The position numbers and the translations under genes were made by a program. From Methanolobus sp. (GTDB lineage Archaea; Halobacteriota; Methanosarcinia; Methanosarcinales; Methanosarcinaceae), in the NCBI RefSeq assembly GCF_016278365.1, contig NZ_JADQBZ010000008.1, positions 372,001 to 436,000 on the forward strand: 64,000 nt of DNA. Reading direction: 5' to 3'. Positions within the stretch are counted from its first letter, which is position 1. Each line of letters opens with the position of its first letter. The notes under the pieces were generated by a model. It was not told the DNA's origin, did no database searches, and worked only from the letters and a program-made list of their open reading frames with translations. This document shows, piece by piece, positions 3,825 through 31,117 of this stretch.

Positions 3825-4577
3825 ATGACATCCATTATTTATGAGCCGAGAGGTAGAGCAAGAGAATATTGCGAGCTTGCCGCAAACCTTTACAGAGGTT
3901 GTAGTCATGGATGCACTTATTGTTATGCCCCTTCAGCAACATTCCGGAAAAAAGAGGATTTTTCTATTCCTACTGTCCGAAAAGATGCATTAGAGCAATT
4001 AAAAAGAGATGCAGTGAAACTTGCCAGTGAGGAAGAAACAAGAGCTATATTGCTATCTTTCACCACAGACCCTTACATACCTTTAGATGTTAAGGAAGGG
4101 TTGACAAGAGAAGCAATTAAAATATTACATGGCAATAATCTAAAAATTGAAATTTTAACAAAGGGTGGAAAGAGGTCCGAAAGGGACTTTGATTTGTTAG
4201 CATCACGACCAGAGTTGAGTCGATACGGTGTTACATTGGTTTTCACAGATGAAAAACAAAGACGTGAAATAGAACCCTTTGCCGCTCCAACTAAAGAGCG
4301 CATAAAATCCCTTAAAAAAGCACATAAAATGGGTATTCCTACGTTTGTTTCACTTGAGCCAGTCTGGACTGCTGAACAATCTTTGGAATTAATAGATTTA
4401 ACGCACGACTTTGTGGATTTATTCAAAGTCGGTAAATTGAACTATAATAAGCAACAAAAGGAAGTTGATTGGTGCCAATTTAGGCATGATGTTATTGATA
4501 AACTCAAAATGTATGGTAGTGATTTTTATATAAAAAGAGATTTGATGAAGTGTGCCCCTTCACTAGAAATCAAATAA
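3825..4577 (+). CDS. Radical SAM protein (SplB-like)
   Basis: LYRGCSHGCTYCYAP carries the CX3CX2C cluster motif; YEPRGRAREYCELAANLYRGC typical N-terminus of the family. Confidence 0.85.
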   Translation: MTSIIYEPRGRAREYCELAANLYRGCSHGCTYCYAPSATFRKKEDFSIPTVRKDALEQLKRDAVKLASEEETRAILLSFTTDPYIPLDVKEGLTREAIKILHGNNLKIEILTKGGKRSERDFDLLASRPELSRYGVTLVFTDEKQRREIEPFAAPTKERIKSLKKAHKMGIPTFVSLEPVWTAEQSLELIDLTHDFVDLFKVGKLNYNKQQKEVDWCQFRHDVIDKLKMYGSDFYIKRDLMKCAPSLEIK

Positions 4578-5744
4578 TGAAGATTGACTGTGTTCCTCCA
4601 TGTCTTCAACTTCCAGAGGTTTGACTTCCTCTGCAGCGTCTTCAATCGTTACAGGAGTGAAATGTACCATACATGAGTCGGACATTCCACCCCTTTTACC
4701 CTTTCCTTCAATCGAAATTTTTGATTTACTTTCTAATTGAAGCAATGCAGTTTTGTAGTCGCCGGTCACATATGGCAAATCATTAGCAGTTTGCATTCTT
4801 ACGGCTTCGTATGTCAAAGACTGTCCATTGAAAATGTCAGCAAGATATTCCTGTAGGGATTCCAAATTATCGAAATTACCTATCGCCATTTGTCCTTCTG
4901 CCGGACCAAGATAACCAAATTGCTTTTTTGTTCCAGCGTTGTACATCACGTTTTTCATTACTTCGCAACCCTTAAAATTATTAGTGGCGTGAATAAGGTA
5001 ATATGTAGTCCTCAGTTTTCCATCTGAATTCACTTTGAATGGAAATGTGAATTTTACATTTGCACCTTGGTGCAACTGGTCTCTATATATCTTTAAAAGA
5101 GCTGCTTCTAAATCCAAATATTCGTACTCCTCTTCGGTTAATGCCTTTACGTTGGGAATACCATACAGTTCTTCTATGCTCCGTGCATGCCCCTCACTAG
5201 GTAAAAATCGATAGACGTATTCAATCATGAAATTTATGAAGACTTCTGTTCTTGGAAGAGCTAATATTTTCTTGATACTATCAAATGGAATCCCACTAAA
5301 GCCAAAGGGGTCGATGAAATAAAATGATGGGTGACTACAGTCTTGGACAATTGTATCAGCGATGTCAGCAAATTCATCATTTATTATATTTTTAATGGTT
5401 ATGCCTGAATAACCGGATGAGTCTTGATTTAGTTCATCTTGTATTACCTTTACTAAATTCTCATGGTTATTTTTGTTTTTTTCAATAAAGGTTAGCTCTA
5501 CGTGTTTAAGGAAATCAAATTTTCGTATGACATCCTTTACTGCACGCATAATAATCAAAGGAGAGCCTAGTTCTCCATTCGTATAAAGACCCCTGCCTGC
5601 AAAACAATCAAAAAAGCAAACAGTGTTATGATATCTACCAAGGATTTTTATCCACGCTTCCAAGTACTTTCTTAGAATTTCATGTTTGACTTCGGTATGT
5701 TCTTTGTAAATCCATTTTTTCGGGTCATCATCAGCAAGGGGCAT
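4563..5744 (-). CDS. tcmP: Three-Cys-motif partner protein TcmP-like
   Basis: KHEILRKYLEAWIKILGRYHNTVCFFDCFAGRGLYTNGELGSPLI and SFYFIDPFGFSGIPFDSIKKIL, characteristic of TcmP family. Confidence 0.8.
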   Translation of the reverse strand: MPLADDDPKKWIYKEHTEVKHEILRKYLEAWIKILGRYHNTVCFFDCFAGRGLYTNGELGSPLIIMRAVKDVIRKFDFLKHVELTFIEKNKNNHENLVKVIQDELNQDSSGYSGITIKNIINDEFADIADTIVQDCSHPSFYFIDPFGFSGIPFDSIKKILALPRTEVFINFMIEYVYRFLPSEGHARSIEELYGIPNVKALTEEEYEYLDLEAALLKIYRDQLHQGANVKFTFPFKVNSDGKLRTTYYLIHATNNFKGCEVMKNVMYNAGTKKQFGYLGPAEGQMAIGNFDNLESLQEYLADIFNGQSLTYEAVRMQTANDLPYVTGDYKTALLQLESKSKISIEGKGKRGGMSDSCMVHFTPVTIEDAAEEVKPLEVEDMEEHSQSSLFDF

Positions 5745-6333: not shown

Positions 6334-9177
6334 GTGATTAACCTTTCCGAGCATCAAACACGTCTCCAAAAAATAGATATCCTGCTGAAAGAGCAAGGGT
6401 GGGATGTTCGTAACAGGTCACAGGTAATTGTTGAAGTTGACACCAAACAATCGGATTTCACGAAGCATATCTATAAACAAATACATGAAACTTTCAGGAA
6501 TGACGCTGAGAGTAAATATGTTGATTATCTCTTGCTCGACAGAATAGGCGACCCTGTTGCCATCATCGAAGCAAAGAGAACAACAAAAGACCCGCTCCTG
6601 GGTCAGAAACAGGCTGAAGAGTATGCTGATGATATCAAAGCTCAAACCGGGAAAGATGTGTTTATATTTCTGTCAAATGGATATGAAATATGGTTTTGGG
6701 ACAGAGAGCGATATCCTCGAAGACCCGTAAAAGGTTTTTACGCTCAAAAAGACCTGGAACGACTGGACTTCCAAATAAAGAATAGTAAAATCAATCATGC
6801 TACATCTGTCAACCCTTCGATTATTGACCGGGACAAGAATGTGGAGGTAGTACATCGAGTAATTGAACACATCCACAACGGTCATAGAAAAGGGCTTATT
6901 GTCATGGCAACAGGGACAGGTAAGACGAGGGTTGCAATGGCAATCATTGACCAACTCATGAGGGAGATGCGTGTTCAAAAAGTATTATTCCTGACTGACC
7001 GACAGGCACTGAGGAAACAGGCATACGATAAAGGTTTCATGCGTTTTTTCCAAGATGAACCAAAAGAAATAATTCTTTCCGGTAACTACGATTCTACCAA
7101 AAGCCTGTATGTTTCCACAATACAAACGTTTCAGGAAATATATACACAGAAAGACAGTAAGGGCAGATACAAAATATCTCCCGGTGAATTTGACCTGATA
7201 TTCTCAGATGAAGCCCACAGGTCCATCTATGTAAAATGGAAAGACATTTTCACATATCTGGATACTATCCAGATTGGACTTACAGCCACCCCTGCAGACC
7301 TCATGGACAGAGATACTTTCCGATTCTTTGAATGTGATGATAATGCTCCAACTGCTTTATACTCTTATGAAGAGGCTGTAAAAGATGGAGTTCTGTGCGA
7401 TTTCCGAAAGAATGTATCGGGTGCACGGACGTACTTCCAGATGGAAGGACTGAAACCAACTGATTTAACTGATAGTGAACGTGAAGAACTACTGAGTAAA
7501 GGCATAGACCCTGATTCCATAAACTTTGAAGGTACCGATATTGAGAAGAAAGTTGCACTAAAGGGAACATCGGAAGCCATTGTCAGGGAGTTTATGGAAA
7601 ACTGCATTACTGATGAATCGGGCAGTCTTCCTGCAAAAACAATCTTTTTCGCAATCTCAAAAACACATGCTTCGAGACTGGAAGAAGCATTTAATCGCCT
7701 TTATCCAGAATATAAAGGTCAACTCGCCAAAAGAATCATTTCAGAAGACCCGCGGGCACAACACCTTATCAATGACTTTGCAACTAAGGCATATCCAAGA
7801 GTTGCAATCTCGGTTGATATGATGGATACTGGAATTGATGTCCCCGAAATATGCAATCTTGTGTTCGCAAAACCGGTATTTTCAAAAATAAAGTTTTGGC
7901 AGATGCTCGGTAGGGGAACCCGTGCAGATGGTGCCTGTGAATATCGAGAATGGTTACCTAACGGTAAAAAAGAGTATTTCAAAGTATTCGATTTTTGGAA
8001 CAATTTCGATTACTGGAACATGAACCCGGAAGGTGTTAAAAACGAATCACCCGAATCCATTACAAATCGTATTTTCCTGTTAAGGCTCAAGCAGTTAGGA
8101 GAGTTGATGTCAAGGGGTGACTCTGCCCATGCAGAGAAGGTGAAAGCGGAGGTACTTGCAGACATTGAATCATTACCAAAGGATTCAGTCAGTGTGAGGG
8201 AACAACTGCAGGACGTGGAGAAAGCCCTGTCTCCGAAACTATGGGACAATATTGCGATAAACCCAGTAGAGTTCCTTCAGAAGAAAATAATGCCTCTGAT
8301 GAAGTACAAACCGAATGTCAACTTGAAAGAGTCAACATTTATTCTTCGATGTGAAAAACTGGCATACGCCATTCTGATGAATGATACCTTGGAAATTGAA
8401 CGTCAGAAAAAATCCATTGCCGAGATGGTGGACTGTTTACCAAGGACTCTGGATAAGGTCAAAGATAAAGAAGAGTTCATTGACAGAGTGTTATCAAGCT
8501 CTTTCTGGAATGATATTGGTTTTGATGACGCAAAGATGATTATGGATGAACTGTCTGCCCTGATGCCCAATATGATGAAGGAGCCGAGAGATACCATTGT
8601 CATCAATATGAGTGATACGATACAGGAACGGAAGCAGTGGATTCTCAGTGACGATAATGAACCAGAATATGCCGTTCAATACAGGAAAAAGATTGAGGAT
8701 TGGATACGGGAGCTTGCAGAAACTCATCCAGTTATCAGGAAAATAAAAAATGATGAGGTTTTGACTGAAGCTGACCTGCAGTCATTGGAAAACACATTGC
8801 ATAACTCTCAGTTTGCTGTGAGCGAATCCAAATTCAATGAGATGTATCACATCCAGAATACCACTTTGGTAGAGTTTATACGGCATATATTGGGTTTGTA
8901 TGACTATCCCTCCCCTGATGAAAAGATAAAGGATGCTTTTAACACCTATATCATTGAAAACAATAAACAATACAATGCAGACCAGCTGAATTTCATCAGG
9001 ACACTGCAGACAATGTTCCTGAGAAAGAAACATATTGAATTCTCGAATCTGTGGAATGCACCTTTCACCAATTTCGGTACAAACGCACCTATGCCAATGT
9101 TCAGTCAGGAAGAGTTAAATGCCTTTGTCGGTATTTGTAATGGAATCGAGAGGGATTTGTTTACAGCAGAGGCATAA
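6334..9177 (+). CDS. hsdR: Type I restriction enzyme R subunit
   Basis: N-terminal nuclease (PVAIIEAKRT), Walker A MATGTGKTRVA, SDEAHRS, LTATPAD, LGRGTRAD helicase motifs. Confidence 0.95.
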   Translation: MINLSEHQTRLQKIDILLKEQGWDVRNRSQVIVEVDTKQSDFTKHIYKQIHETFRNDAESKYVDYLLLDRIGDPVAIIEAKRTTKDPLLGQKQAEEYADDIKAQTGKDVFIFLSNGYEIWFWDRERYPRRPVKGFYAQKDLERLDFQIKNSKINHATSVNPSIIDRDKNVEVVHRVIEHIHNGHRKGLIVMATGTGKTRVAMAIIDQLMREMRVQKVLFLTDRQALRKQAYDKGFMRFFQDEPKEIILSGNYDSTKSLYVSTIQTFQEIYTQKDSKGRYKISPGEFDLIFSDEAHRSIYVKWKDIFTYLDTIQIGLTATPADLMDRDTFRFFECDDNAPTALYSYEEAVKDGVLCDFRKNVSGARTYFQMEGLKPTDLTDSEREELLSKGIDPDSINFEGTDIEKKVALKGTSEAIVREFMENCITDESGSLPAKTIFFAISKTHASRLEEAFNRLYPEYKGQLAKRIISEDPRAQHLINDFATKAYPRVAISVDMMDTGIDVPEICNLVFAKPVFSKIKFWQMLGRGTRADGACEYREWLPNGKKEYFKVFDFWNNFDYWNMNPEGVKNESPESITNRIFLLRLKQLGELMSRGDSAHAEKVKAEVLADIESLPKDSVSVREQLQDVEKALSPKLWDNIAINPVEFLQKKIMPLMKYKPNVNLKESTFILRCEKLAYAILMNDTLEIERQKKSIAEMVDCLPRTLDKVKDKEEFIDRVLSSSFWNDIGFDDAKMIMDELSALMPNMMKEPRDTIVINMSDTIQERKQWILSDDNEPEYAVQYRKKIEDWIRELAETHPVIRKIKNDEVLTEADLQSLENTLHNSQFAVSESKFNEMYHIQNTTLVEFIRHILGLYDYPSPDEKIKDAFNTYIIENNKQYNADQLNFIRTLQTMFLRKKHIEFSNLWNAPFTNFGTNAPMPMFSQEELNAFVGICNGIERDLFTAEA

Positions 9178-9180
9178 CGG

Positions 9181-10299
9181 ATGGAAAATGAGTTACCGGA
9201 TGGATGGGAATGGAAGAAGCTTGGAGACATTATTGAATTAAAGTATGGAAAAGGGCTAAAGGGAGAAAATAGAAACCCGAAAGGGAGTATTCCTGTATAT
9301 GGTTCTAATGGGATTGTTGGATACCACGATGAATCAATGGTTCCAAATCCATGCTTGATTCTTGGAAGAAAGGGGTCAATAGGTTCTGTACACTTGTCTA
9401 ATACATACTGTTGGCCAATTGATACTACTTATTACATAAATCCACCGGCAAATGCTGCTCTCAAGTACCTATACTATTTCTTATCAACATTAAATCTCAA
9501 ATCACTAAACAAATCTACTGCAATTCCAGGACTCAATAGAAACGATGTTTATTCGAAAGATATTCCACTCCCACCTCTCGAAACCCAACATAAAATTGTC
9601 GCTATACTTGAAAAAGCCGAAGAAACTAAAAAACTGCGGGCACAGGCTGATGAACTGACACAGCAGTTCCTGAAGAGTGTGTTTGTGGAGATGTTTGGGG
9701 ACCCAATTGCGAACCCAAAAAGATGGAATAAAAGGAAACTAGGGGAGTTGTGCAGAATAAGAAGAGGTGCTTCTCCACGACCCATTGAAAACTATGTAGG
9801 TGGTACAGTTCCTTGGGTCAAAATAGGAGATGGAACCAAGGGGAACGACATATATATCGAAAATACAGCTGAAAAAATAATAGAAGAAGGTGTCAAAAAA
9901 AGTGTTTTATTGAAAAAAGGCTCTTTAATATTTGCAAATTGTGGAGTTAGTTTAGGTTTTGCACGAATACTCAATATTGATGGTTGTATTCACGACGGCT
10001 GGCTTTCATTGGAAGATATTAGTATCGAATTAAATATAATTTACCTTTTAAAGTTGATAAACAGCATCAGTAACTATTTTAGATTAACTGCTCCTGATGG
10101 AACTCAACCTAACTTGAATACAACAATAATGAAGAACTTTGAAATTCCTGTCCCTCCGTTGTCGATGCAAAACAAATTTGCAGACTTTGTTGAAAATATA
10201 GAAAAAAGTAAACAGACTCAGCAACAATGTCATCAAGAAATTGATATGCTTTTCAATGTACTTATGCAAAAAGCCTTCACCGGAGAACTGGTATCATGA
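9181..10299 (+). CDS. hsdS: Type I restriction enzyme S (specificity) subunit
   Basis: Two target recognition domains each followed by conserved coiled-coil (IPLPPLETQHKIVAILEKAEE; IPVPPLSMQNKFADFVENIEKSKQ); 3 bp after hsdR. Confidence 0.93.
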   Translation: MENELPDGWEWKKLGDIIELKYGKGLKGENRNPKGSIPVYGSNGIVGYHDESMVPNPCLILGRKGSIGSVHLSNTYCWPIDTTYYINPPANAALKYLYYFLSTLNLKSLNKSTAIPGLNRNDVYSKDIPLPPLETQHKIVAILEKAEETKKLRAQADELTQQFLKSVFVEMFGDPIANPKRWNKRKLGELCRIRRGASPRPIENYVGGTVPWVKIGDGTKGNDIYIENTAEKIIEEGVKKSVLLKKGSLIFANCGVSLGFARILNIDGCIHDGWLSLEDISIELNIIYLLKLINSISNYFRLTAPDGTQPNLNTTIMKNFEIPVPPLSMQNKFADFVENIEKSKQTQQQCHQEIDMLFNVLMQKAFTGELVS

Positions 10300-11807
10300 G
10301 ACTTTCACCTGACAAGAAATCACAGATAGACTCCCTCTGGGATAAATTTTGGAGTGGTGGTCTATCCAATCCTCTATCATCCATTGAACAGATGTCATAC
10401 CTTATCTTCATGAAAAGGCTTGAAGATATGGACATATTGGAACAACGGCGAGCCACTGCAATGGGAAAGGAGTATAAATCCATCTTCGTGGGAAATGAAA
10501 GTTGCAGGTGGTCACACTGGAAACACATGTCAGCTGTGGAGATGCTTCCCCATGTAAGAGATGTGGTTTTCCCCTTCATCAAAAGCATTCACGATGGGGA
10601 GAAAACATTATTCTCCAAACATATGAAAGATGCAGTGTTCATTATTCCGAAGCCTGCGCTGCTAAAAGAAGCTGTTGGGATAATTGATGAACTGGATATC
10701 TCCGCACAATCATCCGATGTACAGGGAGACCTCTATGAGTACCTACTCAGTCAATTATCCACTGCCGGAAAGAATGGTCAATTCAGGACACCAAGACACA
10801 TAATCCGGATGATTGTGGAACTTGTTGACCCGGATGTCAATGACAGAGTTTGTGACCCTGCTTGTGGTACGGGTGGTTTTATCTTCAGTGCCTTCAGGTA
10901 TATTTTGAAGAAGTATACAAGTCCTGACATGGTTGAAATTGATGAAGAAGGAGATTACCATAATCTCATCGGTGACCATATAACCGAGCAAAGTCATTGG
11001 GACAAACTGTACAATGACACTTTTTATGGGTTTGACTTCGATTCAACGATGGTACGCATCGGACTTATGAACATGGTTCTTCATGGTATCAAATCCGCTC
11101 ATCTCGAACTTGTTGATACCCTGTCAAATCAGTATGAAGAAGCGGAAAAATATACAGTCATCCTTGCAAATCCACCGTTCAAGGGTAGTATCGATAAAAC
11201 TGATATCAATGACAAGCTCACTCTTGGAACAACAAAGACCGAGTTGTTGTTTGTAGAGCAGATGATACGCCTGCTTGAGGTCGGCGGCAAATGTGGTGTT
11301 ATTGTTCCCGATGGGGTGCTATTTGGCAGTTCAGGTGCTCATAGAAGCCTTCGGAAGATGCTCCTTGATACATGCCAGCTTGAAGGTATTGTTTCCATGC
11401 CATCGGGCGTATTCAAACCTTATGCCGGGGTTTCCACAGCTGTATTGATATTCACCAAAGGTGATAGTACAGAGAAGGTCTGGTTCTATGATATGGATGC
11501 AGACGGTTATTCACTGGATGATAAGAGAAATCCGATTGACAGGAAGGGAGATATTCCTGATATCATTGCAAGATTCAGGAACCGGAAAACTGAAAACCCC
11601 ACAGACCGAAAGGGCAAGTGCTTTTTTGTACCTGTGAAAGAGATAAAGGATAACAATTATGACCTTTCCATATCCCGATATAAAGAAATCGAATATGAAG
11701 ATGTAAAGTATGAGAAGCCTGAGGTCATTATTGATAAGATTGAAGATTTGGAAAGGCAGATACTGGAAAATATTTCAGAGTTGAGGCAGCTGGTGGGAGA
11801 AAAATAA
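10296..11807 (+). CDS. hsdM: Type I restriction enzyme M subunit
   Basis: N6-adenine MTase motifs VCDPACGTGGF and ILANPPF; ATGA overlap with hsdS. Confidence 0.95.
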   Translation: MRLSPDKKSQIDSLWDKFWSGGLSNPLSSIEQMSYLIFMKRLEDMDILEQRRATAMGKEYKSIFVGNESCRWSHWKHMSAVEMLPHVRDVVFPFIKSIHDGEKTLFSKHMKDAVFIIPKPALLKEAVGIIDELDISAQSSDVQGDLYEYLLSQLSTAGKNGQFRTPRHIIRMIVELVDPDVNDRVCDPACGTGGFIFSAFRYILKKYTSPDMVEIDEEGDYHNLIGDHITEQSHWDKLYNDTFYGFDFDSTMVRIGLMNMVLHGIKSAHLELVDTLSNQYEEAEKYTVILANPPFKGSIDKTDINDKLTLGTTKTELLFVEQMIRLLEVGGKCGVIVPDGVLFGSSGAHRSLRKMLLDTCQLEGIVSMPSGVFKPYAGVSTAVLIFTKGDSTEKVWFYDMDADGYSLDDKRNPIDRKGDIPDIIARFRNRKTENPTDRKGKCFFVPVKEIKDNNYDLSISRYKEIEYEDVKYEKPEVIIDKIEDLERQILENISELRQLVGEK

Positions 11808-12431: not shown

Positions 12432-13073
12432 TTACATCAAACTCACAACATGCTGCTTAATTATATTCCTCTCAATATCCGGCGTTATCCTGGCATAGAA
12501 CTTCGCTGTGGTCAACGTACTGCTATGATTCAGCCTGTACGATATAACCTCTAAAGGAACTCCCTGTGAGAGCAGATAGGTCGCCAATCCGTGTCTGAAG
12601 AGATGAGGATGGGTTTTCCTTATCCCTGCAATCTCACTGTACTCCTCGAGCATCTGGTTGACGTACTGTCGGGTGATAATACTCTCGTCCTTTCCGAACC
12701 CTATGAACAACGGACCTTCGACCTTCCATGTTCGAATGTAATTTGAAATAAGCAGTGCAATGTCAGAGTCTATGCTCAGGGTGTGCCATACACTTCTTTT
12801 TTTCACGTAAAATTTGATTGTCAGGCCACGGAAGTCAATGTTTTCGGTCCTGATGCTCAACACATCACTAATCCTTCCGGCAGTTATCCACATCATCTGA
12901 AGGAGGAGTTTGTTTCGTTCCTTTATCTGCAGATTGCGTATAGATTTACGTTTGAGGTTATTATATTTGATTTCAACAGCTTCGAGCAATGAATGATATT
13001 CATTAATAGTCAGGTAATCTGTTGCTTCCTGCAATACTAAGTCTCTTGTTTGAAATGGAATTATTCCTGTCAT
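12432..13073 (-). CDS. Tyrosine recombinase/integrase
   Basis: TAGRISDVLSI, HPHLFRHGLATYLLSQGVPLEVISYRLNHSSTLTTAKFYARI: R...HxxR...H/Y catalytic pattern. Confidence 0.9.
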   Translation of the reverse strand: MTGIIPFQTRDLVLQEATDYLTINEYHSLLEAVEIKYNNLKRKSIRNLQIKERNKLLLQMMWITAGRISDVLSIRTENIDFRGLTIKFYVKKRSVWHTLSIDSDIALLISNYIRTWKVEGPLFIGFGKDESIITRQYVNQMLEEYSEIAGIRKTHPHLFRHGLATYLLSQGVPLEVISYRLNHSSTLTTAKFYARITPDIERNIIKQHVVSLM

Positions 13074-16124: not shown

Positions 16125-16526
16125 ATGAGAATCAGAGTTGTAAGCTCAAAGGATGAGATAAATACTCTTGAATATAATGAGCAGATAGTTCATTTTACCT
16201 TCAGACCTTCAAACGAGGATATATTATCACTGGTGACACAGTGTCCAGACGTGAAAGCAATCCACATATCACAGTCTCACAAGAAAACTATCTCAAAATC
16301 CACAGAGATGTTACTAGAGATGCAAGATATTATCCTCATTGTGGGTAATATATGGGGGCACAGGAAAGACATCAATCAATATGTGGATGTTTCAAAGGGT
16401 ATGTATCACCGTATCAACCATTATAGGGCGAATGGATTTTCAGATGTGGAAATAGAAGCAAGGCTCATTGAAGAAATGTATGTGAGTGCTGACATTATTC
16501 AATTTTTCCTCAAAAACGGCGAGTAG
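16125..16526 (+). CDS. DUF1699 family protein (paralogue A)
   Basis: MRIRVVSSKDEINTLEYNEQIVHFTFRPSNEDILSLVTQCPDVKAI...WGHRKDIN; paralogous to 17865..18266. Confidence 0.8.
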   Translation: MRIRVVSSKDEINTLEYNEQIVHFTFRPSNEDILSLVTQCPDVKAIHISQSHKKTISKSTEMLLEMQDIILIVGNIWGHRKDINQYVDVSKGMYHRINHYRANGFSDVEIEARLIEEMYVSADIIQFFLKNGE

Positions 16527-17864: not shown

Positions 17865-18266
17865 ATGAAAATCCGAGTAGTAAGTTCAAAAGATGAAATT
17901 AATTCCCTTGGTCCAAACGAACAAATGATACACTTTGCATTCCGACCATCAAATACGGATATCTTTACGCTTATAACCAAGTGTCCAGATGTTAAAGCCC
18001 TACACATCCCGCAATCATACATCAAAACTGTTTCCAAATCAATTCGCATGTTCCTTGAGATGAAAGGTATCGCTCTCCTGGAAGGCGATGTATGGGGTCA
18101 CAGGAAGGATATCAACGAGTATTCCGAGATTTCGCAGGGTGTTTATGACCGTATAGACGAATACAGGATAGATGGTCTATCGGATGAAGAGATTGAGGGC
18201 AAGATGAGTAGGGATTTACATATGGGGACAGACCTAATCAGATTCCTGTTGAAAAATAAGAAATGA
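17865..18266 (+). CDS. DUF1699 family protein (paralogue B)
   Basis: MKIRVVSSKDEINSLGPNEQMIHFAFRPSNTDIFTLITKCPDVKALHIPQSYIKTVSKSIRMFLEMKGIALLEGDVWGHRKDINEY. Confidence 0.85.
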   Translation: MKIRVVSSKDEINSLGPNEQMIHFAFRPSNTDIFTLITKCPDVKALHIPQSYIKTVSKSIRMFLEMKGIALLEGDVWGHRKDINEYSEISQGVYDRIDEYRIDGLSDEEIEGKMSRDLHMGTDLIRFLLKNKK

Positions 18267-18973: not shown

Positions 18974-19264
18974 TCAACATCCTGAAGCTTCCTTTACTAG
19001 GGCATCAATGTAGACTTCTAGGTCATGCATCTCGAATCTGGAGTGACATAAAAGGAAATTCACCGCATGAGTAACGGTTGGCAGGTTGTGAGACCTGCCA
19101 CGTTTCACAGGTATCCCAAGCAAGTTGCATTTCTGCATAAAAAGAGATTGCAACTCGTTATGTACCTTCGATATTTTCTCATAGTCAGGACTCGCCACCT
19201 TGACGGAAGAAATATCCTTTTTGGAGATAGCAAGAGCTATCTGTTTACCTGTACCTTTTACCAT
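18974..19264 (-). CDS. Hypothetical protein
   Basis: MVKGTGKQIALAISKKDISSVKVASPDYEKISKVHNELQSLFMQ... Confidence 0.45.
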   Translation of the reverse strand: MVKGTGKQIALAISKKDISSVKVASPDYEKISKVHNELQSLFMQKCNLLGIPVKRGRSHNLPTVTHAVNFLLCHSRFEMHDLEVYIDALVKEASGC

Positions 19265-19400
19265 AATACATTCTCCATTAAATTAGAGTCACGCTGTAAC
19301 GTGACTAAAAACTGTATAATCTAAATACTATTTAAATTTTCTGTTTTTTGGAAATATGATAGCAAGAGAAAGGTTAAATAGAATACTGATTAAGAACTGA

Positions 19401-19515
19401 GGGAGGTGCGGTAGTATGTGCTGTAACACATGCTTTTGGCACAATCACTTACATCCTGGACTTACCATCCAGGGTGCATTCTCCAGATTGTGCACGCACC
19501 TTACCTAATTATTCG
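19401..19515 (+). ncRNA. Candidate structured small RNA or leader (three-way junction) with promoter and T-rich end
   Basis: Closing stem AGGTGCG/CGCACCT (19404-19410/19495-19501); hairpin GTATGTG/CACATGC (19414-19420/19427-19433); arm GCACAATC/GATTGTGC (19439-19446/19486-19493) capped by CATCCTGGA/TCCAGGGTG (19452-19460/19468-19476). TATA-like TTAAATA at 19374-19380 about 25 nt upstream; CCTTTTTA just downstream. Confidence 0.55.
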
Positions 19516-19604
19516 CCTTTTTAGAGCATAAATAATTTACATTGAGTGGAAATAAAACTGCACTTTCTGTTTCATATTGCAGAATGTTTATTTTGAGAGT
19601 TCGT

Positions 19605-19892
19605 ATGTTATTGAAATCGAAAGTAACATATATAATAAATACTTTATGTTTGAACGGTGATTTCATAAAACTAAGAAGGCCTCGAGGAAGACCACCAACA
19701 GATATTATATCTTCCATTTTTTATTGGATTCACGTTGTAGTTGGAACTATACTAATGAATCCTACATTGTTGATGGGTATAGTTGGTGGTATTGGTGGAT
19801 ATTACATTGGCCATAGTTTTGAAATGATAATAGTGGGATTTGTAATAGGTTCTGCTCTTGGTTTTGTTATTTTTGAGGGAAGAAGATGGTAA
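19605..19892 (+). CDS. Small membrane protein with AT-hook-like RRPRGRPP motif
   Basis: MLLKSKVTYIINTLCLNGDFIKLRRPRGRPPTDIISSIFYWIHVVVGTILMNPTLLMGIVGGIGGYYIGHSFEMIIVGFVIG. Confidence 0.5.
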   Translation: MLLKSKVTYIINTLCLNGDFIKLRRPRGRPPTDIISSIFYWIHVVVGTILMNPTLLMGIVGGIGGYYIGHSFEMIIVGFVIGSALGFVIFEGRRW

Positions 19893-20197
19893 ATATTTAC
19901 GTTCCCGTTCTTCTCACACTTTTATTATATCTGTTATTTATACGGGATTCAAAATTAAAAAAATACAATTTATCAGAATGCCATGTTGAAGTTTTTTTGT
20001 ATTCTTTTGGATTATCTACAAGCATTTTACTGTCACTGTCTTTGATATTATATGCCTTAAATGGCAAAGTCATTTTAGGATTGTCGGAAGAAATGCTTCA
20101 TCTTGGAATTTTCATTGGCGGAGTCACTTTATTAATTTCAACTCTGAAAGGAATAAACTCTAAGTTGAAAAAGAATCATAGCAAGAACAATGACTGA
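19886..20197 (+). CDS. Small membrane protein, hypothetical
   Basis: Three hydrophobic segments; overlaps upstream gene by 7 bp. Confidence 0.5.
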   Translation: MVNIYVPVLLTLLLYLLFIRDSKLKKYNLSECHVEVFLYSFGLSTSILLSLSLILYALNGKVILGLSEEMLHLGIFIGGVTLLISTLKGINSKLKKNHSKNND

Positions 20198-25694: not shown

Positions 25695-28169
25695 TCAATC
25701 ATAGAATTGAAGCTTTTCATTGATGCTCGATGCAGATTCTTTTTGAGCAGGTGATTTCGATAATGGACTAACAGCCGTTTTGCCTATTACTCCATTGAAT
25801 CCAGCACCACCATTTTGTATGTACAATCCGCCCGCATTGGTGACTGAGTATTTCTTAAGGGCTCCACTCTTAGAAGTATCAAAGCCTGCGATTGTGTTAG
25901 TACTGGTAGTTTTGGTATGTGTTTCTGCATCCTTAGCAGCTGCATCAAATGCAAAGTCCATACCGATAGCTTCCTTGATTTTCTTGATGTCCAGAGTTAT
26001 ACCAGTCACCAGTTTATCGTTAATCCGATTGGTTGAAGTATATCCTGACCTTTTGCCTTGAATAACCAATATACCGTTCGCTTTAAAGTCTTCCATCATT
26101 TTAGTGTAGTATCCATGTGGTTTCTTATTTTTTGGGTCACTGACTCCAAGTGCGTCCTTCATCTGCTTTGAAAACAAACAAATGTATGTATTGTCCCAAT
26201 GTCCAGGCATTCTTTTATTGGATATATTGCCATGAGGATTATAATCCGTGATTCCTTGGGGTTCTGCATCATTAAAGTACATTTTCTCTGCCTGTGCATA
26301 TTGGAAGATATCATTAAGCGCTTTATGCCACGTAGGACAGTCGTCCAGTTTCTCAACATATTCCCCATATACTTCTTTGACGACATCTATTGGATTCATT
26401 GCAGGGATACCAATGTCCTTGAATACTTCTTCAAGTATGACTCCGGCAAGTGTGAGAACTGCAAGACTAGCACCCATACGGTTTTTCATCATACTATCTT
26501 TGTTCTGATACAGTGCAAGGCATTTCTCATATTCAGCCTGCAAACCATCCAACATACTGAAAACTTTTTGTAGGTATAGTTCTATGATGTGGCCATAGTT
26601 TCCGGAGCGTATCTGTGTCGGTATTACTGTGTCTTCAAAGTGCTTCACACCCTCTACATTCACCTTCATCATTTTCCTGACTTCAAGCACCCTGACCTTT
26701 TGACCACTGTTGGCATTGTCATCAAGTATGGGGTTCTCACCATTGATTGATATGATATTGCTCCATTCAACAGGCTTGTTAATTATATGCCCGCCATCCT
26801 GTTGTTTCATCTTGAACCTGTCATGTCCTTGTGCAAAACGATAGATGAGCTTGCCAAAATGGTCACTTTCACCTGCTAGTGTCGATTCATCAAAACATAC
26901 AAGATGGTTATTAAGAATGTAAAGCAACTGCGGATTTGATGCTGCTGTTGAATCTGCGGGAATAATCAATTCGGCAGGATTACCGTAGAGACCGATTGCT
27001 CCTTTATCTTTTAATGATTTACCTTTAGACGTGTCAAAATTAGAGTTTATTACAAAGGTTGCAATCCCCAGTGGTTTAAGCAGTGGTGCTGCCATTGCAG
27101 CATAACAATGAGCTCTCAATACTGGGTCACATATGATATCCTTTATTCCATCAATCCATCCTTCAAGAGTACCTGCCTTACTTAGTTTTGGAGATATTGT
27201 CTTTTCAATATTGACTATGGTTATGTTACCTTTTGGAGAAAACGTCCTATCACCAACTTGGAAAGCTTCTTCATGCCATCCGTTCCTATCGGTAACTATA
27301 AAGTTATGTAGATGAACTGATTCCATAGTTTTCCTAAAATATTCTTGAAGCATACCAGACTTATTTTCAGTAATATTGACTTTCGCTGACAATGTTTCTA
27401 TGATGCCTTTCTTTGACAGTATTTGTCTCGTAATGAAGATGTCTTGATACTCCTCACCGTCGTTAGATAACCATTTAATCAAACCATATTGGTCACCACC
27501 ATCCTTGGATTTCCCCATACCGACCAATATACAAAAATCACAGATGGGAGTGAAAAACAGAAATCCATCTATTCCTTCAATTTGGTATAAGGTCTTCCCA
27601 CCATTGGAATTATCTTTTATCGCATAGCCATTAGGCAAGACGTATTCTTTCCACGCATATTGATAATTGTTGTTCCCATGGTTTCCAGAGCTGATGCCCT
27701 TTAGCTCCGTGAACAGTTCCATTGATTTAGTGTAATTATCCTTTATATCTTCAATACCATTCAATTCTTTTAGTAAATAGTCTAAAAATTTTGATATCTG
27801 GCTTGTGGTATATTCTTCAGAGATTATCTTAATCATTGATGCGAGTTCTCTTCTACATGCTATTGTTGCTTTACCTGTAGGGGTCCTAAAAATATCGTCA
27901 TATGAAAAGACAACAGGGTCATAATTGTTTTCGACTTCTTTATGAGAAACTCGAACTTCGATAACATATTTATATGCTATAATATCAATAGCATCATTCA
28001 CAGTAAATACAATATCATTCTCAGGAATTGGTATAATCCTGTCATTGATAAGACAGTTTTCAATTTCCTGATATAAGGTTTGGATTTCATCTTCGCTGGA
28101 AACGTCTTGAATCAGTACGTTTTCCCCATCATCGGAACTATCTTTAAATACTTTAATGTCATCTTGCAT
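25695..28169 (-). CDS. DUF927 domain protein (helicase/primase-like replication protein of an integrated element)
   Basis: RNGWHEEAFQVGDRTFSPKG, NSNFDTSKGKSLKDKGAIGLYGNP, LLYILNNHLVCFDESTLAGESDHFGKLIYRFAQGHDRFKM typical of DUF927. ORF track start at 28220; MQDDIKVF at 28169 preferred. Confidence 0.7.
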   Translation of the reverse strand: MQDDIKVFKDSSDDGENVLIQDVSSEDEIQTLYQEIENCLINDRIIPIPENDIVFTVNDAIDIIAYKYVIEVRVSHKEVENNYDPVVFSYDDIFRTPTGKATIACRRELASMIKIISEEYTTSQISKFLDYLLKELNGIEDIKDNYTKSMELFTELKGISSGNHGNNNYQYAWKEYVLPNGYAIKDNSNGGKTLYQIEGIDGFLFFTPICDFCILVGMGKSKDGGDQYGLIKWLSNDGEEYQDIFITRQILSKKGIIETLSAKVNITENKSGMLQEYFRKTMESVHLHNFIVTDRNGWHEEAFQVGDRTFSPKGNITIVNIEKTISPKLSKAGTLEGWIDGIKDIICDPVLRAHCYAAMAAPLLKPLGIATFVINSNFDTSKGKSLKDKGAIGLYGNPAELIIPADSTAASNPQLLYILNNHLVCFDESTLAGESDHFGKLIYRFAQGHDRFKMKQQDGGHIINKPVEWSNIISINGENPILDDNANSGQKVRVLEVRKMMKVNVEGVKHFEDTVIPTQIRSGNYGHIIELYLQKVFSMLDGLQAEYEKCLALYQNKDSMMKNRMGASLAVLTLAGVILEEVFKDIGIPAMNPIDVVKEVYGEYVEKLDDCPTWHKALNDIFQYAQAEKMYFNDAEPQGITDYNPHGNISNKRMPGHWDNTYICLFSKQMKDALGVSDPKNKKPHGYYTKMMEDFKANGILVIQGKRSGYTSTNRINDKLVTGITLDIKKIKEAIGMDFAFDAAAKDAETHTKTTSTNTIAGFDTSKSGALKKYSVTNAGGLYIQNGGAGFNGVIGKTAVSPLSKSPAQKESASSINEKLQFYD

Positions 28170-28266
28170 TATAATCACCGTTTTAATAAAAGAGAAGTGC
28201 ATTGCCTGGCAGCAATTCACTTCGATTGTTTATTTATTTCAGGTCGATTTTCCAACTTGACCTTTT

Positions 28267-29602: not shown

Positions 29603-31117
29603 TCATTCCTTAGACTCGCCCTCAATCAATTCAGGGTCGATGTAAGGTTCATATTCACGTGGCTTTTTGACCTTTTGGAGTTTCTGTAACATCCTGATTG
29701 CGTTTGTGTCACCATCAATTACCTTCTGAATCAACTTCTGAGTGTCTTCACTCAGCTTACTATCAATTTCTACATCATTTGCAATATGTTTTTCAAGTTG
29801 AGCAATCCTTTCGTTTTGCTTCATGTGCTCGTATCTTTCTACTTTATAGGTGGCATTTTCTGCTTTCAACTGTTCGACTTCTCCCACTTTTTCAATAAAT
29901 TGTGGATTATCCGCAATTGCAACATTCTTATCGATGGTTAAATACACTTCATATTTTTTGTATATCTGTAGCATTTCTGTATCATTGGGAATATAATACG
30001 ATTTCTCGACACCTAAATCATGTCCTAACCAATATTCAATGAGCATATTATTACAATTTGCATTGACTAGCGATGTCTTAAACAAATCACGCATGTTATG
30101 TGCTCTTACAGGATTGTATACGAATTTTCCATTACTTAATCCAGATGCTTGTGATATTTTCCTGTATCTGTCAGCAATAGCATATGGTGTCATGATACGT
30201 CTTGATTCATTCATATCAGCAAGATATGCATCACTAATCCTGTCAGAAATGAATAAAGGTGATGTAGGTGTTGTTTTTGTTTTTATATATTTTTTTTTAT
30301 AAAAATTGATATCAATCCTATCAGGAATTGCATCACGTAATTTTAAATATTCGATTACAGATTGACTTGCTTCAGGTGTAAGGAATGTGGTATACTCTAC
30401 ATCGGTTTTTAATCGCCTTATATGCAGGACTGTAAATCTTTTTGTAACATCTTCCATTTTTTCAGGGTTGTAACCACCAATGAAGTCTTGAACTGTCAAT
30501 GACGATAATTCGGAGGCACCCATTCCTCCTGCAAAACCACACATTAGTAATGCTCTATCTTTTACTTCCGCAAATTTTAAAAATATTCTCAACTCATCTT
30601 TTGTTGGCATTTTTTCATTATCTTTGAGCGTTTTGGGCTTCTTATTCTTTTTTGGGGAACGTGGTATTGGGATACTTCTAAATCGATAGAATGAAGCAGT
30701 GCATGTCATATACATAGCAATAGCATTTTCTGATAGTTTTTTCCTGTTGTTTCGAGTTTTCGAAATTATTTTACCATCTGCATCCCTTATAACTCTGTAT
30801 AGATTATCATCATTATCCGTTTCGTAGGTTGTCACGTTGCCGCATTCATCAGTTTCTTTAATATGTAGATGTTGCCCTTCATCTAAAAATCTTTTAAAGC
30901 GAGGTAATAAGAAATACAATTCTTTTTCATCATCAAATAGACCTGCTTTAATATCCTGTTTTGCATTTTTTATCAATTCTTCAGGAGTTTTCCCCGTATA
31001 ACATGTGTAATAATGCATTGCTGTAACACATTTATTCCAATAAGAATCAGATGGTTCTAATACGTCGTACCAGTCTTTCATAATGTCGTTGTTAAGCAAG
31101 TCTCTCTTATTCATCAC
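29603..31117 (-). CDS. Tyrosine recombinase/integrase family protein
   Basis: MCGFAGGMGASELSSLTVQDF, RAHNMRDLFKTSLVNANCNNMLIEYWLGHDLGVEKSYYIPN (HxxR...GH...Y). Confidence 0.8.
   Translation of the reverse strand: MMNKRDLLNNDIMKDWYDVLEPSDSYWNKCVTAMHYYTCYTGKTPEELIKNAKQDIKAGLFDDEKELYFLLPRFKRFLDEGQHLHIKETDECGNVTTYETDNDDNLYRVIRDADGKIISKTRNNRKKLSENAIAMYMTCTASFYRFRSIPIPRSPKKNKKPKTLKDNEKMPTKDELRIFLKFAEVKDRALLMCGFAGGMGASELSSLTVQDFIGGYNPEKMEDVTKRFTVLHIRRLKTDVEYTTFLTPEASQSVIEYLKLRDAIPDRIDINFYKKKYIKTKTTPTSPLFISDRISDAYLADMNESRRIMTPYAIADRYRKISQASGLSNGKFVYNPVRAHNMRDLFKTSLVNANCNNMLIEYWLGHDLGVEKSYYIPNDTEMLQIYKKYEVYLTIDKNVAIADNPQFIEKVGEVEQLKAENATYKVERYEHMKQNERIAQLEKHIANDVEIDSKLSEDTQKLIQKVIDGDTNAIRMLQKLQKVKKPREYEPYIDPELIEGESKE

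Follow-up and report, generated by a model that had tools for sequence, protein, structure and literature searches.

The RNA gene and its divergent neighbour

The stretch of Methanolobus sp. DNA analyzed here (64,000 nucleotides, the window) carries a candidate gene for a structured regulatory RNA at 19400..19522 on the + strand, with a predicted transcript of ~105–120 nt. The fold places four helices, nested in one closed three-way junction, at 19404–19501. The closing stem is formed by 19404..19410 pairing with 19495–19501, and both strands are supported by the fold and by covariation. Hairpin 1 (19413..19434) presents the loop CTGTAA at 19421–19426. Arm 2 (19439..19493) consists of an asymmetric internal loop and an apical hairpin, and the element CATTCTCCA at 19477..19485 makes up exactly the 9-nt unpaired 3′ strand of this internal loop. 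A TATA box, TTAAATA, is located upstream at 19374..19380, and a T-rich, terminator-like end, CCTTTTTA, is located downstream at 19516..19523. Such a T-run follows the RNA in most, though not all, homologues.

The stretch 19395–19520 (+) folds with a minimum free energy of −46.9 kcal/mol and a z score of −4.41, and a tighter 114-nt stretch on the same strand reaches a z score of −5.51; none of 200 shuffled sequences folded as well in either case. The reverse strand also folds (z −3.35). The RNA was assigned to the + strand because conservation, the TATA box, and the match to the target described below fix it. In nearly all copies of the RNA groups A to C defined below, the TATA box lies 29–31 nt upstream of the stem start, which fits a transcription start just 5′ of the stem. 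The first-pass annotation had described the nested helices, the TTAAATA element, and the T-rich end, and each was found where claimed. Its view that the sequence is neither a tRNA nor a member of a recognized RNA family also held: ARAGORN and Rfam found no tRNA here, and searching Rfam 15 with the window and ten homologue loci gave no family above the gathering cutoff for the RNA (best subthreshold score 14.9 bits). A protein-coding role was considered for a 30-codon ATG ORF inside the RNA; this ORF is broken in the homologues of genomes G002 and G015, and the RNA is therefore treated as non-coding.

Divergently oriented from the RNA and 140 bp away lies an ORF of 96 amino acids (18974..19264, −). 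Its conservation beside the RNA marks it as the putative regulated partner. Its 5′ untranslated region (UTR) contains the hairpin AGTCACG-TTACAG-CGTGACT (19287..19306, −), whose loop at 19294–19299 is complementary to the loop of RNA hairpin 1, and the ribosome binding site (RBS) region TGGAGAATG (19269..19277, −), which is complementary to CATTCTCCA and ends 4 nt before the ATG. A TATA-like sequence, ATTTAAATAGT (19327..19337, −), is the likely divergent promoter; a similar stretch is present in the three-species alignment. The feature is best described by trimming the RNA to ~19400–19522 and adding the regulated partner at 18974–19310.

Comparison of the window with G002 and G015 showed that only ~530 bp are alike, comprising the RNA, the intergenic region, and the 96-aa gene, while the flanks are unrelated. 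The 96-aa protein encoded beside the RNA shares 59% identity with its counterpart in G002 and 75% with that in G015. With dN of ~0.18–0.30 and dS of ~1, the gene is under purifying selection. No family in Pfam, PHROG, NCBIfam, or PADLOC includes the protein, it shows no homology to known toxins, and searches of viral contigs, phages, and plasmids gave no match for it. Its predicted fold is helical (pLDDT 66) and gave no significant PDB match.

Two tyrosine integrases (12432–13073 and 29603–31117, both −) and a DUF927 gene (25695–28220, −) occur in the same window, which suggests mobile DNA nearby, in the form of at least one integrated element surrounding the cassette. The gene at 4563–5744 (−) matches the PADLOC candidate defence family PDC-M30A (E 3.6e-34), and the adjoining ORFs at 6334–11807 read like a type I restriction–modification system. 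The genes at 16125–16526 and 17865–18266 (both +) are paralogues of one small family, presumably related to DUF1699, which also has a member at L070:8937–9335. The presence of these paralogues near the RNA in two genera is probably a coincidence.

A conserved RNA family in Methanosarcinaceae

A BLAST search within the genus returned two full homologues of the RNA, in G002 (79%) and G015 (75%), and one partial homologue in G026. A covariance model built from the window, G002, and G015 sequences (R1; group A) found seven clear relatives in genus g14 (group B), with per-genome E values of 5e-8 to 3e-12. R1 also picked up weaker relatives in other Methanolobus genomes, several of which belong to a third group (group C) and scored at ~2e-4 to 6e-4. 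A model built from group C (R3) recovered in turn the window RNA and its two group A homologues (E 3e-5 to 1e-4). Covariance models thus recover relatives in two to three genera of Methanosarcinaceae. Judging by resemblance, g14 may be Methanomethylovorans, g3 Methanococcoides, and g17 Methanoperedens.

The structure was retained across 11 homologous sequences. In this set, 92.2% of the alignment cells pair, and 23 of the 34 base pairs have changed on both sides (53 such cells). The covariation score was 0.503, compared with 0.250 ± 0.019 for shuffled alignments, none of 500 of which reached it, and with at most 0.145 for slid controls; the score benefits from the alignment having been fitted to the structure. 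Compensatory change is visible by eye in the closing stem, where GGTGCG/CGCACC is replaced by GGCATG/CATGCC. Groups A, B, and C share the structure with covariation, models built from some members find the others, and a promoter is present at a fixed distance in all three groups. The window RNA is a conserved RNA whose structure lies far beyond chance, and its conserved structure and fixed TATA distance support the earlier suggestion that it is a stand-alone small RNA with a promoter of its own.

Group C retains the closing stem, a GGU junction, and hairpin 1; its second arm is different. R3 found one group C copy in each of 19 Methanolobus genomes, and G002 carries a group C copy together with a second, decayed one, bringing group C to 20 of 27 Methanolobus genomes. 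The window's own genome has a group C copy (G000:C11:106304–106446, −; locus L129), which is probably decayed because 4 of its 17 pairs are broken and the TATA box is absent. Group C members (L114–L133) share a conserved unpaired GGGAACUCGCAUACCAACCA. Searching for a target with the conserved 14-mer of group C returned only the RNA genes themselves and a few scattered one-mismatch matches. The group C arm is thus conserved without a visible RBS target, though the scaffold is kept, which suggests that not every family member works by RBS pairing.

Searches with R2 or R3 in other genera of the order gave no convincing relatives, and a sample of the phylum gave none except one marginal match. Pattern matches occur in viral contigs, none of them with a model match to the RNA. 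Six or more Methanolobus genomes gave 21-nt matches, which lie inside a ribosomal protein gene and were dismissed as chance. In the group A copies of G026 (L004:1461–1560) and G009 (L061), the 5′ half with the promoter and hairpin 1 has been swapped for unrelated DNA, and the 3′ half has been retained. A SIR2-domain gene precedes the family RNA of G143 (L069:3083–4683) by ~140 nt, and a likely methyltransferase lies farther along; this locus is possibly a defence island.

Complementarity to small-gene leaders

Each RNA was searched for exact complementarity to its own 96-aa 5′ UTR in the three Methanolobus genomes, and just two sites of at least 8 nt were found. At the first, the hairpin-1 loop (GCTGTAAC, TGCTGTAACA, or TGCTGGTACA) matches the loop of the UTR hairpin over 8, 10, and 10 nt, at 27–28 nt before the ATG. 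The UTR hairpin is predicted in all three genomes, and the two loops may form a kissing contact. At the second site, the 9-nt strand (CATTCTCCA, CTTGTTCCA, or CTGTTTCCG) matches the RBS and ends exactly 4 nt before the ATG. Five of its nine positions vary between species, and all 27 base pairs across the three genomes are retained, giving complementarity to the target RBS with covariation. In the fold predicted for the window RNA both sites are unpaired, the first being the 6-nt loop and the second making up the entire 3′ strand of the internal loop in arm 2. A search of the window for the two-part site gave a single occurrence, against none in 100 shuffled sequences. A single 9-nt match occurs in 3–4% of shuffled UTRs; as a lone match of this length means little, the weight of the argument lies in its repetition at the same place with different letters. 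The general duplex energy between the RNA and the 96-aa mRNA is not unusual in the window's genome or G002, and the sites emerged only from the search for exact stretches in the UTR. The first-pass annotation had overlooked this match between the RNA loops and the UTR.

If this contact geometry is general, group B RNAs, with their loop UUGGCG and bulge GUUUGCUCC, would need a target with a CGCCAA hairpin loop followed by GGAGCAAAC before the ATG. The pattern CGCCAA..GGAGCAAA was found in three g14 genomes, G152, G153, and, twice, G155. The leader there consists of a TCATG-CGCCAA-CATGA hairpin followed by AGGAGCAAAC-TATT-ATG, again with a spacing of 4 nt to the ATG. On contigs long enough to show it, the target gene is an ORF of 70 amino acids; of the two G155 copies, one is broken. 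The distance between target and RNA is 1.7 to 8 kb in G152, G153, and one of the G155 loci. The same rule of UTR hairpin loop plus RBS therefore correctly predicted the target of a sister RNA in another genus. A pattern match in G039 lacks both the hairpin and the spacing and is probably due to chance; G039 and G051, both of which carry a group B RNA, gave no exact target. For the G143 RNA, a loose 9-mer scan was uninformative. A relative of the 70-aa gene lies directly behind the 96-aa gene in G002 and directly behind a broken 96-aa relative in G143, which ties the two target types to each other.

Other relatives of the 70-aa gene, in G002, G007, G008, and G009, lie in operons whose first gene is a small ORF; upstream of these operons is a divergent three-way-junction RNA of roughly 80 nt (group D). 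The three intact cases (G002, G007, and G008) show loop and RBS complementarity of 6–9 nt, the matches in G008 being 6 nt only. No covariance-model link was found between groups A and D. When seven RNA/UTR pairs were permuted, the true assignment had the highest anti-RBS complementarity among all 5040 permutations; for the loops it ranked first together with one equivalent swap. The segments entered into both comparisons had been picked after the matches were known. One non-cognate RNA/UTR pair is more stable. In the four D RNAs, the anti-RBS letters differ strongly between conserved flanks.

The G007 operon goes on with a homologue of the Rep protein of the Methanosarcina plasmid pC2A (27%, E 1e-32), and the same G007 protein matches a pFTZ6-02 protein more closely (44%, E 2e-103). 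RepA of pC2A-derived vectors is a rolling-circle initiator (PMC9569500). Other target operons carry DUF7845, for which no plasmid match was found; one of these, a group B target operon (L072), lies ~6 kb from an integrase-like gene. No clear RNA of the same type was seen in pC2A or pFTZ6-02. Upstream of the pC2A rep gene, a hairpin and a long inverted repeat with a T-run are present (L187, 2447–2580), and a hairpin farther upstream on the same strand is complementary to the loop ACCTGAA. The pC2A hairpin is a possible analogue of the RNA control in the window. In genus g17, small genes distantly resembling the 96-aa gene occur at L039–L048, some of them followed by a gene of 51–59 aa and one (L044) by Prim-Pol; no RNA of the three-way-junction family was detected beside them.

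Proposed role and comparison with known systems

The match of both free loops to the leader of the divergent 96-aa gene gives the RNA a putative function in controlling that gene. Judged from this pairing, the RNA is highly likely to be a stand-alone antisense-type repressor, and it would very probably act as a translational brake on its neighbour. The three-way junction would hold two short segments unpaired, the 6-nt hairpin-1 loop and the 9-nt strand bulging from arm 2. In a kissing contact, the hairpin-1 loop would meet the loop of the 5′-proximal hairpin in the target mRNA, and the arm-2 bulge would pair with the RBS up to 4 nt before the ATG, thereby blocking 30S loading. This would turn off the small gene, plus anything translated after it. 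We infer transcription, RNA–RNA binding, the direction of repression, and the biological role from these features and, more weakly, that such RNAs originated as controllers of replication or maintenance operons in integrated plasmids. Control of such operons is the leading role for this family because target genes and their relatives occur in Rep, DUF7845, and Prim-Pol contexts.

One refinement of this explanation, on which we are evenly divided, is a copy-control module of integrated plasmids, in which the RNA limits translation of the leader genes of rep operons and the window cassette is a relic. It draws on the group D RNA upstream of the operon with the pC2A Rep and pFTZ6-02 homologue, on the rolling-circle function of pC2A-type RepA (PMC9569500), on the L072 operon with DUF7845 near an integrase-like gene, and on the single Methanoperedens-like locus where a relative of the 96-aa gene precedes Prim-Pol. 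However, coupling of the target to a replication initiator is indicated by homology in the G007 group D operon and was not seen in the window cassette, where the 96-aa gene has no replication gene behind it, and DUF7845 has neither a known function nor a plasmid match. The main rival to a replication or maintenance role uses the same contact mechanism in a type I toxin–antitoxin system, with the 96-aa protein and the related 70-aa protein as toxins and the RNA as antitoxin. A small mobile two-gene cassette with a divergent RNA, predicted RBS occlusion, a sporadic distribution among genomes, decayed copies, and restriction–modification or CRISPR-like genes close by in places would all suit such a system, and the RNA does lie beside a small ORF whose mRNA it matches by complementarity. 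Yet the proteins look soluble, unlike the usual hydrophobic type I toxins, and relatives of the target genes stand in operons ahead of Rep, DUF7845, or Prim-Pol; we regard a toxin–antitoxin role as rather unlikely.

A general trans-acting small RNA or host ribonucleoprotein scaffold, with real targets elsewhere and an incidental neighbour match, would agree with the single-copy, genus-wide presence of group C (20 of 27 Methanolobus genomes) and its conserved unpaired GGGAACUCGCAUACCAACCA. It is improbable, since the group A match lies at fixed positions with compensatory changes and its geometry recurs in group B. Functionless leftovers of a local duplication or inversion could account for the common loop sequence of the UTR hairpin and hairpin 1 in inverse orientation; such an origin is very improbable, as the match is confined to the loop and RBS letters while the stems differ, in each species the matching letters have changed jointly, and unlinked loci show the same pattern. 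Besides a stand-alone RNA, the first-pass annotation had offered a leader or riboswitch acting on the small membrane genes at 19605–20197, which lie on the same strand ~80 nt downstream of the RNA. Only the former survives. These genes fall outside the conserved block and stand beside the RNA in no other genome, several relatives have no same-strand gene behind the RNA, and a T-run intervenes; a leader function is therefore extremely improbable.

On the preferred reading, antisense control of the divergent gene, we tentatively propose, with somewhat less than even confidence, a new class of archaeal antisense RNA in which mobile-element operons are controlled through a conserved three-way-junction scaffold with two exchangeable loops, one for kissing and one for RBS pairing, and of which group C is a host-wide relative. 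Within such a class, group C may cross-regulate or buffer these elements. Occurring once per genome in most Methanolobus, it represents a previously unrecognized genus-wide RNA. Archaeal small RNAs with convincing targets are few, and RNA control of replication or addiction in archaeal plasmids is a largely open field. In the open literature, a scope outside which most subscription journals fall, we found no description of an RNA of this kind from methanogens, and the work on RepA describes its results as first insights into methanogen plasmid replication (PMC9569500). With the RNA, its putative mRNA partner, and each predicted base pair defined, the contact can be tested by two-sided mutations in a genetically tractable family, and the exchangeable-loop scaffold could serve as a regulator in methanogen genetics.

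Among known systems, sRNA162 of Methanosarcina mazei (RF02792) is likewise a small RNA of Methanosarcinaceae divergent from a neighbour gene of unknown function. It binds 5′ UTRs and masks an RBS, and it comprises 191 nt with a 65-nt linear overlap and a single-stranded linker (PMC3510493). Unlike for the window RNA, no two-loop contact held by a three-way junction has been described for sRNA162, and the two are unrelated by covariance score (14.7 bits, on the other strand, against 78 required). Bacterial CopA and Inc/RNAI (IncFII, IncB) use the loop of a structured RNA to meet a loop in the target leader and block leader or rep translation; they are transcribed from the opposite strand of that leader and are fully complementary to it. 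The window RNA resembles them in its predicted loop–loop contact and, through the group D set, in its link to rep operons, but it is encoded elsewhere, is archaeal, and makes two short matches in the loops of a three-way junction. Haloarchaeal CreTA is presumably comparable, being likewise a small-RNA module of archaea at a mobile or defence locus. In CreTA the toxin itself is an RNA, regulated by a CRISPR-like RNA with control by Cascade; we take the window cassette to contain no such parts. The pairs tisB/istR-1, dinQ/agrB, and zorO/orzO resemble the window cassette in that the RNA is encoded separately and is complementary, in discontinuous stretches, to the 5′ UTR of a small gene; they differ in that the window protein is not hydrophobic and its RNA is strongly structured. 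According to PMC12390103, type I systems had been discovered only in three bacterial phyla. By analogy, the nearest mechanisms to the one proposed here would be those of the bacterial CopA/Inc RNAs and of antitoxins such as IstR-1.
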